From positions 248,001-312,000 of the forward strand of contig NZ_PVZF01000006.1 in the NCBI RefSeq assembly GCF_003002055.1: DNA of 64,000 nucleotides, read 5' to 3'. Below the pieces are notes generated by a model. The model had not been told where the DNA came from and ran no database searches. It worked only from the letters and a program-made list of their open reading frames with translations. Positions 3,266 to 39,689 of this stretch are shown piece by piece. Numbering within the stretch: position 1 is the first letter of the stretch; every line of letters begins with the position of its first letter. Source of the DNA: Kineococcus rhizosphaerae. GTDB taxonomy: Bacteria > Actinomycetota > Actinomycetes > Actinomycetales > Kineococcaceae. The translations under genes and the position numbers were made by a program.

Positions 3266-4438
3266 TCAGCTGAAGCCGAACTCGCCGGCCAGGACGAGGG
3301 CGGCGGCCCCCTGCAGGACGCCGTTCTCCCCCAGGCGGCCCAGGCGCAGGCGCACGGACGGGCCGGTCGTCGGCAGGAGCGTCCCCTCGACCGTGGAGGT
3401 GGCGGCGTCGAGCAGCGGGCCGTCGAGGAGGTCGCCGGGGCCCACGAGGAGCACCTCCTCGAGGTCGAGGGCGGCGACGACGGGGGCCAGCACGGCCCCC
3501 AGCCGCCGGCCGGCGTCGCGCAGGGCGACGCGGCGCCGCGCCGGGGTGCGCCCCTCGAGCGTCCGCGCCAGGTACGTGGGGGCGACGATCGTCTCCAGGC
3601 ACCCGCGCCGGCCGCACTCGCAGGGCTCACCCCGCGGATCCACCGTCAGGTGTCCGATCTCGCCCGCCGCGAGCCGGTGCCCGCGCACGAGGTGGCCGTC
3701 GAGCACGATCCCGGCCCCGACGCCCTGGCCGACGACGACGGCCATGAACCCCGACGCGGACGCCCCGGCGTACGTGAACTCGGCCAGCGCCGCCGCGTCG
3801 GCGTCGTTGGCGACGTGGACCCCGACCCCCAGCCGGGTGGTCAGGGTCTCGGCCAGCGGCAGGTCCTTCCAGCCGAGCCGCACGGACTCCACGATCCCGC
3901 CCGCGGCGTCCACGATGCCCGGCGTCCCGACGCCGACCCCGACGACCCGTTGCACCGCTGCCCCGATCGCCTCGCGGCAGACGCGCTCGACCGCGTCGAC
4001 CGCCTCCTGACCCCGCACCCCGGAGAAGTCCTCGGTGCGCTCGCTGACGACGGCGCCCGCGAGGTCGAGGACGGCGACGCGCGCCACGGGCAGCCGCTGC
4101 AGGTCGACGGCGACGATGTGGTGCTCGGTCGAACGCAGACCGACCATCATCGCGGGCTTGCCGACGCGCCCCTCCGGGCGCAGCCCGAGCTCGGCGACGA
4201 GGCCGTCGGCGAGCAGCTCCCCCACGATCTCCGAGACGGTCACCCGGGTCAGGCCCGTCGCCCGCGCCAGGTCGGCGCGCGAGACGGGGCCGGAGTGGAA
4301 GAGCAGCCCGAGGACGACGGCCCGGTTGTGGGCCCGGGCCTGCGTCGGCAGCACCTTGGCGCTGGGCCGCAGTCCCCGCGTGGAGGTGCGCCACGGCGTG
4401 GGGTGGGGCCGGGCGGCGGGGGCGGTCGGGCTGGTCAC
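3266..4438 (-). CDS. ROK-family transcriptional repressor (NagC/XylR-like)
   Basis: A 390-residue ROK protein. An N-terminal winged helix lies at about residues 36-95 (LLFHSGPVSRADLARATGLTRVTVSEIVGELLADGLV), followed by a sugar-kinase-like fold with the ROK zinc motif GHLTVDPRGEPCECGRRGCLE. It lacks a clear ATP-binding DxGGT motif (AVDLQRL replaces it), as expected for a regulator and not a kinase. It is divergent from the sugar ABC operon at 4656 and most likely represses it until an amino sugar or its phosphate binds. Confidence 0.9.
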   Translation of the reverse strand: MTSPTAPAARPHPTPWRTSTRGLRPSAKVLPTQARAHNRAVVLGLLFHSGPVSRADLARATGLTRVTVSEIVGELLADGLVAELGLRPEGRVGKPAMMVGLRSTEHHIVAVDLQRLPVARVAVLDLAGAVVSERTEDFSGVRGQEAVDAVERVCREAIGAAVQRVVGVGVGTPGIVDAAGGIVESVRLGWKDLPLAETLTTRLGVGVHVANDADAAALAEFTYAGASASGFMAVVVGQGVGAGIVLDGHLVRGHRLAAGEIGHLTVDPRGEPCECGRRGCLETIVAPTYLARTLEGRTPARRRVALRDAGRRLGAVLAPVVAALDLEEVLLVGPGDLLDGPLLDAATSTVEGTLLPTTGPSVRLRLGRLGENGVLQGAAALVLAGEFGFS

Positions 4439-37162: not shown

Positions 37163-37462
37163 TCACTCGTCCTTCTGCAACGTGGCCCACAGCCCGTAGC
37201 CGTGCATGGCCTCGACGTCGCGTTCCATCGACTCGCGGGTGCCCGAGCTCACGACGGCCCGGCCCTTGGAGTGCACGTCCATCATGAGCGCCTCCGCCTT
37301 GGCCTCGGAGTAGCCGAAGTGGGTGCGGAACACGTACGTCACGTAGGACATCAGGTTCACCGGGTCGTTCCAGACGAGGGTGACCCACGGGGTGTCCGGG
37401 GAGGTGACGAGATCGGTCTCCGGACGCTCGAGCTCGGTGGGAGCGGTCAGGACGACAGGCAC
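37163..37462 (-). CDS. clpS: ATP-dependent Clp protease adaptor ClpS
   Basis: A 99-residue adaptor that delivers N-degron substrates to ClpC/ClpA. Key elements are [27 protein letters not shown], with the Asn-Asp pair that binds the substrate N-terminus, and [37 protein letters not shown]. It is divergent from pncB with 41 bp between starts. Confidence 0.95.
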
Positions 37463-37503: not shown

Positions 37504-38811
37504 ATGGTGAGCCACCACAGCGGCAGCACGGCCCTGCTGACCGACCACTACGAGCTGACGATGCTCCAGGCGGCCCTCTCGGACGGGACGGGCGAGCGGG
37601 CCTGCACCTTCGAGGTCTTCGGCCGCCGGCTGCCCGAGGGGCGCCGCTACGGCGTCGTCGCCGGCACCGGGCGCGTCCTGGACGCCGTGCGCGACTTCAC
37701 CTTCGACCCCGAGCTGCTCGCCGGCCTGCGCGGGGTGCTCGACGAGCGGACGCTGGACTGGCTGGCCGGGTACCGCTTCGGCGGGTCCATCGAAGGCTAC
37801 GCCGAGGGCGAGCTGTGGTTCCCCGGCTCGCCCATCCTCACGGTGACGGGCACCTTCGCCGAGGCGGTGATCCTGGAGACGGTCGTCCTGTCGATCCTCA
37901 ACCACGACTGCGCGATCGCGGCGGCGGCCTCGCGGATGGTCCAGGCCGCCGGTGACCGGCCCCTGATCGAGATGGGCTCGCGCCGCACGCACGAGGACGC
38001 CGCCGTCGCCGCCTCCCGCGCCGCCTACCTGGCCGGGTTCACCTCGACGTCGAACCTGCAGGCCGGCGCCTCCTACGGCATACCGACGTCGGGGACGTCC
38101 GCGCACGCCTTCACCCTGCTGCACGACACCGAGGCGCAGGCCTTCGCCGCGCAGGTCGCCGCCCTCGGCGTCGGCACCACCCTGCTCGTCGACACGTACG
38201 ACATCACCGCCGGCATCGCCACGGCCGTCGAGGTCGCCGGGCCGCAGCTGGGGGCGGTGCGCATCGACTCCGGGGACCTGGAGGTCCTCGCCGTCCAGGC
38301 CCGCGCCCAGCTCGACTCCCTGGGGGCCACCGGCACCCGCATCGTCGTCTCCGGGGACCTCGACGAGTACGCGCTCGCCGCGCTGCGCGCCGCCCCCGTC
38401 GACGGCTACGGCGTCGGGACGTCCCTGGTGACGGGGTCCGGCGCGCCCACCGCGGGCCTGGTCTACAAGCTCGTCGAGGTCGAGGGCCGGCCCGTCGCCA
38501 AGCGCTCCACCTCCAAGGTCACCCAGGGCGGGCGCAAGGTCGCCGTCCGCCGCCACCGCCCGACCGGCACCGCCACCGACGAGGTCCTCGGCGTCGGGTC
38601 CACCCCGCCGCGGGAGCCGAACGACCGGCCGCTGCAGGTGCCGCTGGTGCGCGAGGGGGAACGCGTCGCGGACCTGCCCGACCTCGCCGCCTCCCGCGAG
38701 CACCTGCGCCGCGCCCTGGTGACCCTGCCCTGGGACGGGCTGGCGCTGTCCAAGGGCGAACCGGCCATCCCCACGACGGTGCTGACCCCCGAGCGGGGGG
38801 TCGTGCGGTGA
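37504..38811 (+). CDS. pncB: Nicotinate phosphoribosyltransferase
   Basis: A 435-residue enzyme that converts nicotinate, PRPP and ATP to nicotinate mononucleotide for NAD salvage. Typical segments are TDHYELTMLQAAL at the N-terminus, GSRRTHEDAAVAASRAAYLAGFTSTSNLQAG, YGIPTSGTSAHAF and RIDSGDL with YGVGTSLVTG for the phosphate site. Its TGA overlaps the first of two repeat-encoded small ORFs that link it to pncA. Confidence 0.95.
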   Translation: MVSHHSGSTALLTDHYELTMLQAALSDGTGERACTFEVFGRRLPEGRRYGVVAGTGRVLDAVRDFTFDPELLAGLRGVLDERTLDWLAGYRFGGSIEGYAEGELWFPGSPILTVTGTFAEAVILETVVLSILNHDCAIAAAASRMVQAAGDRPLIEMGSRRTHEDAAVAASRAAYLAGFTSTSNLQAGASYGIPTSGTSAHAFTLLHDTEAQAFAAQVAALGVGTTLLVDTYDITAGIATAVEVAGPQLGAVRIDSGDLEVLAVQARAQLDSLGATGTRIVVSGDLDEYALAALRAAPVDGYGVGTSLVTGSGAPTAGLVYKLVEVEGRPVAKRSTSKVTQGGRKVAVRRHRPTGTATDEVLGVGSTPPREPNDRPLQVPLVREGERVADLPDLAASREHLRRALVTLPWDGLALSKGEPAIPTTVLTPERGVVR

Positions 38812-38930
38812 GCGACGCGCGGCGCGACGCCGCCTGGACGCAGGGAACGCGCCGACGGAGTCGCCGCGCGGTCCCGGAGGAAGGCGGCGTCACCGGCGCC
38901 GCGACGGAGCGAACCCAGGAGACACGGTGA
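38808..38930 (+). CDS. Repeat-encoded small ORF 1 (40 residues)
   Basis: An ORF from GTG 38808 (overlapping the pncB stop as GTGA) to TGA at 38928-38930. The peptide starts VSDARRDAAWTQGTRRRSRR and ends in TQETR; it is Arg-rich and basic. It is the first unit of a 119-bp direct repeat, and its TGA overlaps the start of the second unit. A CCAGGAGA ribosome site belongs to the end of each unit. It may be a translated coupling peptide or a by-product of repeat insertion. Confidence 0.4.
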   Translation: MSDARRDAAWTQGTRRRSRRAVPEEGGVTGAATERTQETR

Positions 38931-39045
38931 GCGACGCGCGGCGCGACGCCGCCTGGACGCAGGGAACGCGCCGACGGAGTCGCTGCGCGGTCCCGGAGGA
39001 AGGCGGCGTCACCGGCGCCGCGACGGAGCGAACCCAGGAGACATC
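38808..39045 (+). repeat. 119-bp direct repeat, two tandem copies, between pncB and pncA
   Basis: Copies at 38808-38926 and 38927-39045 are nearly identical: one internal C/T change (38863 versus 38984 region) and a two-base change just before the final start codon. GTG codons at 38808, 38927 and 39046 (pncA) are spaced exactly 119 bp. Each copy contains a hairpin: 38818-38835 pairs with 38882-38903, 18 base pairs with a 4-nt bulge (CGCGGCGC, GACGCCGCCT and their complements). The period is not a multiple of three, so each copy is a self-contained ORF. Confidence 0.9.
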
Positions 39046-39049
39046 GTGA
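38927..39049 (+). CDS. Repeat-encoded small ORF 2 (40 residues)
   Basis: The second unit's ORF, from GTG 38927 to TGA at 39047-39049, encodes almost the same 40-residue basic peptide as ORF 1, ending in TQETS. Its stop overlaps the pncA GTG (GTGA), so ribosomes could pass from pncB through both small ORFs into pncA by termination-reinitiation. No homolog known to me. Confidence 0.4.
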   Translation: MSDARRDAAWTQGTRRRSRCAVPEEGGVTGAATERTQETS

Positions 39050-39663
39050 GCAGGGCGCTCGTGGTCGTGGACGTGCAGAACGACTTCTGCCCCGGCGGCT
39101 CCCTGGCCGTCGCCGGCGGGGACGAGGTCGCCCGGGCGATCAGCGCCCTGCTGGCCGTGGACACCTCCACGGGCCGGGGCATCGCGTACGACCACGTCGT
39201 GGCCACGCAGGACTTCCACATCGACCCCGGTGCGCACTTCTCCGACACGCCCGACTTCGTCGACTCCTGGCCGGTGCACTGCCGCGCCGGCACGACCGGC
39301 GCCCGGCTGCACGACGACCTGGTGACCGACCGCGTCGAGGCCGTGTTCCGCAAGGGCCAGTACGCCGCCGCGTACTCGGGGTTCGAGGGGGTCAGCACGA
39401 CCGTCACCGCCGAGGGCGGCGAACTCGACACCGGACTCGCGGACTGGTTGCGGGACAGGGGGGTCGACGAGGTCCACGTGGTGGGGATCGCCACCGACCA
39501 CTGCGTGCGGGCCACCGCGCTCGACGCCGCGCGCCTGGGCCTTCGCACCACCGTGCTCCTGGGGCTGACCGCCGGGATCTCCGCGGCCACGGTCGAGGCG
39601 GCGCTGGCCGAACTGCGCGCGAACGGGGTCACCCTCATCGGTGACCCCGTCCTGGCGGGCTGA
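39046..39663 (+). CDS. pncA: Nicotinamidase
   Basis: A 205-residue isochorismatase-fold amidase converting nicotinamide to nicotinate, the substrate of PncB. The catalytic triad can be seen: Asp9 in VVVDVQNDF, the Lys in VFRKGQYAAAYSGFEG, and the Cys in ATDHCVRAT. Metal ligands are in QDFHIDPGAHF. The GTG at 39046 has CCAGGAGA just upstream, contributed by the 119-bp repeat. Pairing with pncB completes a nicotinamide salvage operon. Confidence 0.95.
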   Translation: MSRALVVVDVQNDFCPGGSLAVAGGDEVARAISALLAVDTSTGRGIAYDHVVATQDFHIDPGAHFSDTPDFVDSWPVHCRAGTTGARLHDDLVTDRVEAVFRKGQYAAAYSGFEGVSTTVTAEGGELDTGLADWLRDRGVDEVHVVGIATDHCVRATALDAARLGLRTTVLLGLTAGISAATVEAALAELRANGVTLIGDPVLAG

Positions 39664-39682
39664 ACGGGAGGGCTGAACGGGA
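39657..39682. repeat. 13-bp tandem duplication at the pncA 3' end
   Basis: GGGCTGAACGGGA occurs twice in a row (39657-39669, 39670-39682). The first copy contains the pncA stop, and the duplicate places a second TGA just downstream. It lies between convergent genes. Confidence 0.8.
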
Positions 39683-39689
39683 GGGCCGG

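Follow-up and report, generated by a model that had tools for sequence, protein, structure and literature searches.

A dispersed hairpin-forming mobile element at stop/start overlaps in Kineococcus rhizosphaerae operons, and the probable role of its mini-ORF in relinking the separated genes

Mycobacterial interspersed repetitive units (MIRUs), reportedly described by Supply et al. in 1997, have DTGA as their insertion target, and to our knowledge studies of how they move and why they are tolerated have drawn on mycobacterial genomes and offered little direct evidence of insertion. Rickettsia palindromic elements are mobile palindromic repeats inserted in frame within host genes, where they add a peptide segment. 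IS200-type insertion is not known to make a target duplication, and we know of no REP element or ordinary MITE of which insertion at a stop/start overlap together with an in-frame ORF is a feature. In the published passages on MIRUs drawn on here, the small ORF is coupled to the neighbouring gene with a spacing of -4 nt and the units are thought to insert at start codons (PMC12548453); unit length is given as 46-101 bp (PMC3914561), units of 77 bp and 53 bp lie side by side at senX3-regX3 (PMC12548453, PMC3914561, PMC4213456, PMC2453075), and MIRUs are described as restricted to M. leprae and the M. tuberculosis complex (PMC4213456). A literature search in which subscription papers, Supply et al. 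1997 included, were mostly beyond reach did not find the Kineococcus family described below, and MIRUs were the sole precedent recognised.

The window analysed here, a stretch of 64,000 nucleotides from Kineococcus rhizosphaerae with a GC content of 74.5%, carries, as assembled, two short repeat units in the order pncB, unit 1, unit 2, pncA. The features of this locus are the following.

37504..38811, + strand: pncB, nicotinate phosphoribosyltransferase (family model, ORFs)
38806..38811, + strand: left-hand CGGTGA of the probable target duplication (sequence; 7 of 10 congener empty sites also read CGGTGA)
38807..38915, + strand: sense-RNA hairpin of unit 1 (folding; covariation across copies)
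38808..38926, + strand: mobile element unit 1, 119 bp from its GTG to the next GTG (tandem repeat, blastn, covariance model)
38808..38930, + strand: mini-ORF 1, 40 codons, its start overlapping the pncB stop and its stop the mini-ORF 2 start
38809-38811, + strand: pncB stop codon TGA, inside the GTGA that opens unit 1
38917..38922, + strand: AGGAGA ribosome-binding site of mini-ORF 2 (sequence)
38925..38930, + strand: right-hand CGGTGA of the probable target duplication, where unit 1 ends (sequence)
38927..39045, + strand: mobile element unit 2, tandem copy (tandem repeat, alignment, covariance model)
38927..39049, + strand: mini-ORF 2, 40 codons, its stop overlapping the pncA start
39036..39041, + strand: AGGAGA ribosome-binding site of pncA (sequence)
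39046..39663, + strand: pncA-type nicotinamidase gene, its GTG start inside the last GTGA (family models)

pncB matched the nicotinate phosphoribosyltransferase model above the curated cut-off (E 3e-210), and the pncA product, which scored below the cut-off of PRK11609 (E 3e-34) and above that of Pfam PF00857, is, on these models, a PncA-type nicotinamidase of the isochorismatase fold. Both units measure 119 bp and together span 38808-39045. An earlier note on this DNA had described three GTG codons 119 bp apart with GTGA overlaps, two 40-residue ORFs in a coupled layout, and overlapping junctions despite a period that is not a multiple of three. All of this holds: the GTGs lie at 38808, 38927 and 39046, the ORF coordinates agree, every stop TGA falls within the next GTGA (three of three junctions), and 119 is 2 mod 3. 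The ribosome site that the note assigned to each unit, CCAGGAGA, stands 5' of both downstream GTGs (38927 and 39046), and its estimate of about three differing bases agrees with the 3 differences found over 127 aligned bases. Tandem Repeats Finder placed the array at 38806-39051 (period 119, 97% matches, score 471), the top of its 19 rows in the window, the runner-up scoring 95. Where the note saw an 18-bp hairpin, the hairpin stands and its size does not, since nearly the whole unit folds as a single hairpin (-72.9 kcal/mol, z -3.8, 0 of 200 shuffles equally stable); in unit 1 its 3' end lies immediately 5' of the AGGAGA site for the next start. Unit 2 terminates in TCGTGA, as against CGGTGA for unit 1, and the pair is most simply explained by a single insertion followed by tandem duplication. 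Flanking this region, clpS (NCBIfam ClpS adapter; 37163-37462, - strand) is divergent from pncB with about 41 bp separating the starts, and a 13-bp tandem repeat of 2.3 copies (39657-39686) begins where pncA ends and duplicates the stop region of that gene.

The two-unit array belongs to a dispersed family, which is a non-autonomous structured mobile element. A blastn search with the unit, the check that the earlier note had proposed for other copies at GTGA junctions, returned 21 places in the K. rhizosphaerae genome, and a covariance model (R1) built on an alignment of 18 units from blastn gave 31 matches on 11 contigs (E <= 1e-3). Sorted by eye, these comprise 22 full units at 21 gene starts, pncA being the only one of the 21 genes with two full units at its start, and nine matches that are degenerate or related hairpins (two each at L025 and L026, one each at L027, L163, L160 and L164, and a degenerate one at L024). 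Besides the pnc locus there are 20 loci, 16 of them reached by blastn (71-92% identity) and four by R1 only; 18 of the 22 units were the training set of R1, and of those found by the model alone (L158, L159, L161, L162) three obey the junction and frame rule described below. Tandem units occur at 5 of the 21 loci (one genome per species).

The 20 other downstream genes were scanned as pieces of 200 to 366 residues, many of which scored below whole-protein cut-offs because the pieces are cut. Family models identified folD, murD, gatA, thiD, holB and folC, genes for an F420-dependent oxidoreductase, an O-succinylhomoserine sulfhydrylase, ABC transporter parts and an M50 protease, and further genes for a lyase, a glycosyltransferase, an AlkZ-like glycosylase, a response regulator and a peptide deformylase; within the limits used, no family model matched the downstream genes at L009 and L159. 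A regulator of the NAD salvage operon, which the earlier note had offered as one reading, is rejected on these grounds, as the element also precedes unrelated genes of folate, cell wall, tRNA amidation, thiamine, transporter, DNA polymerase III and response-regulator function. A related hairpin family, CGACGATCGGCGCG .. CGACGGAGTCGCTGCG .. GGCGCCGTGAGGAGTG, was seen in the same genome at L025:4048-4290, L026:3991-4234, L027, L163 and L160, by eye mostly directly 3' of stop codons and single or in tandem; its outer arms vary among copies yet pair within each copy, and these post-stop hairpins are possibly terminators or mRNA 3' ends.

The pncB-pncA junction is without insert in all ten congeners, where pncA starts with GTGA in eight, with ATGA in one and with GTGC, without overlap, in one. 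At 12 further loci the element is absent from all 40 orthologous congener regions (12 each from G001 and G002, 10 from G004, 6 from G009), 37 of which hold the upstream stop within RTGA; the remaining three are CTGA (murD in G002 and G004, and folC in G009, there TGATG). Because the junctions are empty in congeners, insertion, not loss, is the simple reading. The L013 junction is occupied in congener G001 too (copy L165). A target duplication was detected over 16 units, from which those with truncated leading units, pnc unit 2 and L161 were excluded: bases -6 to -1 before the first and the last GTGA match at 53 of 96 positions, against 33.5 in swapped pairs (permutation p ~1e-4). For bases -12 to -7 the signal is not significant in the same 16 units (p 0.10), so the length of the duplication is left unfixed. 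Clear cases are CAGCCAGTGA (L011), GGGGCACGGCGTGA (second copy at L018), TGCAGCGTGAGC (L019) and AGCTGTGAGC (L159). Of the 12 bases before GTGA, 11 match at L011 and 10 at L012, as against 2 at L010 and 1 at L022; the duplication may therefore reach the ribosome site in some copies and be invisible now in others.

The layout seen at pncA recurs at nearly all loci. On the entry side, the upstream stop lies inside the unit-opening GTGA at 15 of 21 loci, and at four more (the first copy at L018, L020, L158 and L162) a truncated leading unit makes the overlap, so that a unit or truncated leading unit begins within the upstream stop at 19 of 21; the overlap has the form TGATG at L158 and GTGA at all others. 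On the exit side, the mini-ORF stop falls within the downstream start at 19 of 21 loci, and at L022 the mini-ORF ends 2 nt 5' of the downstream GTG. At L023 the upstream gene stops 5 nt early, without exact overlap; this kinase gene (near 4173) ends 5 nt before its counterpart in G001, which places the loss of the exact overlap at or after insertion. At L161, before the deformylase gene, the mini-ORF runs in frame into that gene, and the SpoIIE-type gene upstream makes no overlap, ending 18 nt earlier.

Measured from start to start, the spacing is 119 in ten units, 116 in five, 140 in four, 122 in two and 114 in L161, and is thus 2 mod 3 in 21 of 22 units; the mini-ORF, of 39-47 codons, is open in the same proportion, the fused L161 being the exception. 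Since units inherit their spacing, these 21 stand for far fewer independent events; the changes that look independent comprise +3 twice, +21 and -3 twice, together with the L161 exception. A seven-codon insert in the middle of the ORF is tolerated in four copies. The truncated leading units at L018, L158 and L162 have 11, 18 and 18 codons, with spacings (calculated from ORF lengths) of 32, 53 and 53 and overlaps at both ends, and that at L020 has lost its stop and forms an in-frame fusion. An open frame alone is weak evidence because a GC content such as that of the window makes open frames cheap, and, among the ten own copies with spacing 119, both remaining sense frames likewise contain 0-1 stops. 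The AT-richer copy L167 of another congener is free of stops in the ORF frame, whereas its two other sense frames contain 2 and 4.

Among the 11 genomes of the genus, only that of K. rhizosphaerae (G000) is rich in copies. G001 has the one copy in common with it (L165) and a partial copy, L166, in which the 5' part of the element (L166:4080-4202) is followed by an unrelated long palindrome. G009 has one diverged copy, the AT-richer L167:3976-4098, with the 40-codon layout between two ABC transporter ATPase genes; it shares 72 of 120 bases with L010 and keeps 18 of 40 peptide residues. Two weak blastn matches occur in G003, and a match in G002 (L168; R1, 36.6 bits) was dropped as chance, as no start/stop junction was seen and a second model, R2, did not find it. 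In samples of the order, R1 matched 4 of 297 genomes and R2 6 of 396, the latter being the own genome, G001 and G009 together with G056, G098 and G163 of another family. In that family the junction layout is found again at L169/L215 (43 codons), L173 (41), L174 (41) and L216 (44); L170 and L172, from one HK-RR locus in the genus of G056, are fused in frame to the response regulator, L171/L217, L220 and L222 have a non-junction or unclear placement, and the R2 matches L219 and L221 have, on inspection, GTGA at the left end and ATGA or GTGA at the right.

The sample of the class (394 genomes) gave R1 matches in the own genome only, and R2 matches there and in G311, G446 and G491, whose copies retain the hairpin core. 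By eye, L225 ends at an apparent start codon, L224 lies just 5' of one and L223 is intergenic, and the targeting of start codons may predate the mini-ORF form. L224 (G446) and L225 (G311), from another actinobacterial family, have similar sequence on both sides of the core (near 1500-1630), and the gene downstream of L225 looks kinase-like by eye. Besides the host's own family, one other family of the order has relatives of the element, and two more families have the hairpin core; the internal loop UGGAC..GGGAAG is conserved between families. The absences in the large samples are soft, because stricter filters were applied there. Phage and plasmid collections contained no similar DNA at E 1e-3. 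Against Rfam, neither the element in the window nor the elements in L223, L224, L225, L169 and L167 scored at or close to the gathering threshold of any family.

We consider it very likely that these copies represent a mobile element of about 119 bp that targets stop/start overlaps and whose mini-ORF carries ribosomes across the insert, relinking the genes. The element enters at the GTGA (also ATGA) of a downstream gene start, nearly always one overlapping the upstream stop, and copies GTGA with at least about 6, perhaps up to 12, preceding bases. This duplication supplies the start codon at the element's left end and restores the GTG of the downstream gene, which in some copies comes with a ribosome site. 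The two target copies enclose an open frame with a start-to-start length of 2 mod 3, a spacing by which a ribosome could pass from the upstream gene to the mini-ORF and on to the downstream gene. A ribosome finishing the upstream gene would restart on the mini-ORF, opening the hairpin as it translates, and would then terminate inside the downstream GTGA and restart on the downstream gene, preserving its expression. The suggestion of the earlier note that this is a dispersed element inserting into operons is borne out by the GTGA-junction copies, the empty sites in congeners, the target duplications and the conserved frame; that the mini-ORF ferries ribosomes over the insert is the most likely reading of the junction anatomy. 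Movement would depend on an enzyme supplied in trans. The Y1 transposase (PF01797), the sole family tried as mover, was found in none of the 11 genus genomes, and neither a longer parent element nor a transposon with the same ends was present among the blastn and model matches. A wider version of this reading, in which an actinobacteria-wide class of hairpins with the UGGAC..GGGAAG loop inserts at RTGA starts and copies ribosome site and start codon, with the mini-ORF form adapted to overlapping genes, MIRUs as one branch and a trans-acting enzyme that reads the start region, possibly via RNA, is tentative and in our judgement rather improbable.

Whether the peptide or the hairpin is what persists bears on two other explanations. 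A functional small basic protein spreading via operons would account for an ORF open in all units except L161 and for the residues that the diverged L167 shares with L010, but the mini-ORF frame has a pN/pS of 0.96 in the nine own copies of equal length, within the range of the five other frames (0.67-1.41), the lowest of which is another sense frame. The orthologous pair L013/L165 differs by 7 nonsynonymous and 2 synonymous changes, the unit 1 peptide has no Pfam or NCBIfam match and that of L167 no Pfam match, and four copies accommodate the seven-codon central insert. The peptide is thus under no detectable purifying selection while the spacing is kept; it is probably without function, and the coding role that the earlier note had considered is very unlikely. 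The hairpin behaves differently. Across copies 95.8% of cells are paired, and 16 of 37 pairs have changed on both sides, where shuffles give 5.1 (0 of 500) and slid pairing partners 2-4, the tested structure being itself derived from these copies. Among imperfect pairs G-U exceeds A-C (20 versus 8, p 0.036; 13 versus 8 by distinct pair and type) and unpaired columns show the opposite bias (C>T 4, G>A 22), which suggests selection on the sense RNA, related copies not being independent. A regulatory RNA, with copies tuning operon expression through mRNA stability, attenuation or a reinitiation block, would draw on this covariation and G-U excess and on the loop shared across families, but a hairpin needed for mobility would show covariation too, and frame conservation would be left unexplained. 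Moreover, copies sit in unrelated operons and are missing from all the congener junctions examined, so there is no fixed regulatory role that has been conserved. We regard this explanation as unlikely, if better placed than a functional protein.

Two further explanations concern the origin of the copies. The near identity of the two units in a draft genome of 63 contigs could reflect a tandem duplication confined to pncB-pncA or an assembly artefact, without any mobile element, the outcome that the earlier note had named as refuting its reading. This is ruled out for the family by the dispersed copies, with the unit at 20 other loci and the 31 matches spread over 11 contigs, and by the L013 copy that a congener shares at the same place (L165), and we give it hardly any credence. 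A REP/RAYT-type element moved by a Y1 (IS200-like) transposase would agree with a short palindromic element adjoining the tetranucleotide GTGA and with the intergenic hairpin relatives in the same genome, but the transposase missing from the genus was detected in 5 of 14 control genomes, and a target duplication is present here; this origin appears highly improbable.

The mobile element with its mini-ORF is classed here as MIRU-like by its working, rather than as a MIRU by descent, a likeness drawn through published descriptions and not through sequence. Like MIRUs, it consists of short, apparently mobile units between operon genes, with tandem and shorter versions, and of a small ORF that overlaps the upstream stop and the downstream start (19 of 21 loci on each side here). 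The start-codon or DTGA target of MIRUs has its counterpart in the empty sites, where 37 of 40 regions have RTGA, as do 9 of the 10 congeners at pncA. The MIRU lengths of 77, 53 and 101 in the published passages leave a remainder of 2 on division by 3, like 119, 116, 122, 140 and 53 here and unlike the lower bound of 46. The host, in contrast, is a non-mycobacterial actinobacterium, full units of 114-140 bp exceed the 46-101 bp given for MIRUs in those passages (truncated leading units here having 32-53 bp), the units form a long covarying hairpin, and empty sites and target duplications are seen directly, evidence of a kind that the MIRU passages drawn on here do not contain. With REP, BIME and RAYT systems and MITEs the element shares a small, non-autonomous, dispersed and palindromic nature, and related hairpins follow stops here (by eye); it differs from REP/RAYT in that its genus lacks the Y1 transposase. 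With regard to MITEs, which have terminal inverted repeats, a target duplication and no transposase gene, the ends of the hairpin here pair imperfectly, a target duplication is seen, and no same-ended parent transposon appeared among the matches. Rickettsia palindromic elements, compared by description, are likewise mobile palindromic repeats tolerated by keeping a frame open, but the elements here lie between genes as separate ORFs in a coupled layout.

It is well supported, with direct evidence for insertion and for the keeping of the frame, that a known kind of mobile family exists in another actinobacterial genus. It forms a second, independent-looking system, with 22 units in a single genome, a pncB-pncA junction empty in ten congeners and 12 further loci empty in up to four, which opens direct tests, outside mycobacteria, of how the target is chosen and duplicated and of the part that the mini-ORF plays in coupling. 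Annotators should note that a small 'gene' of 39-47 codons lying between two operon partners can be a mobile spacer.
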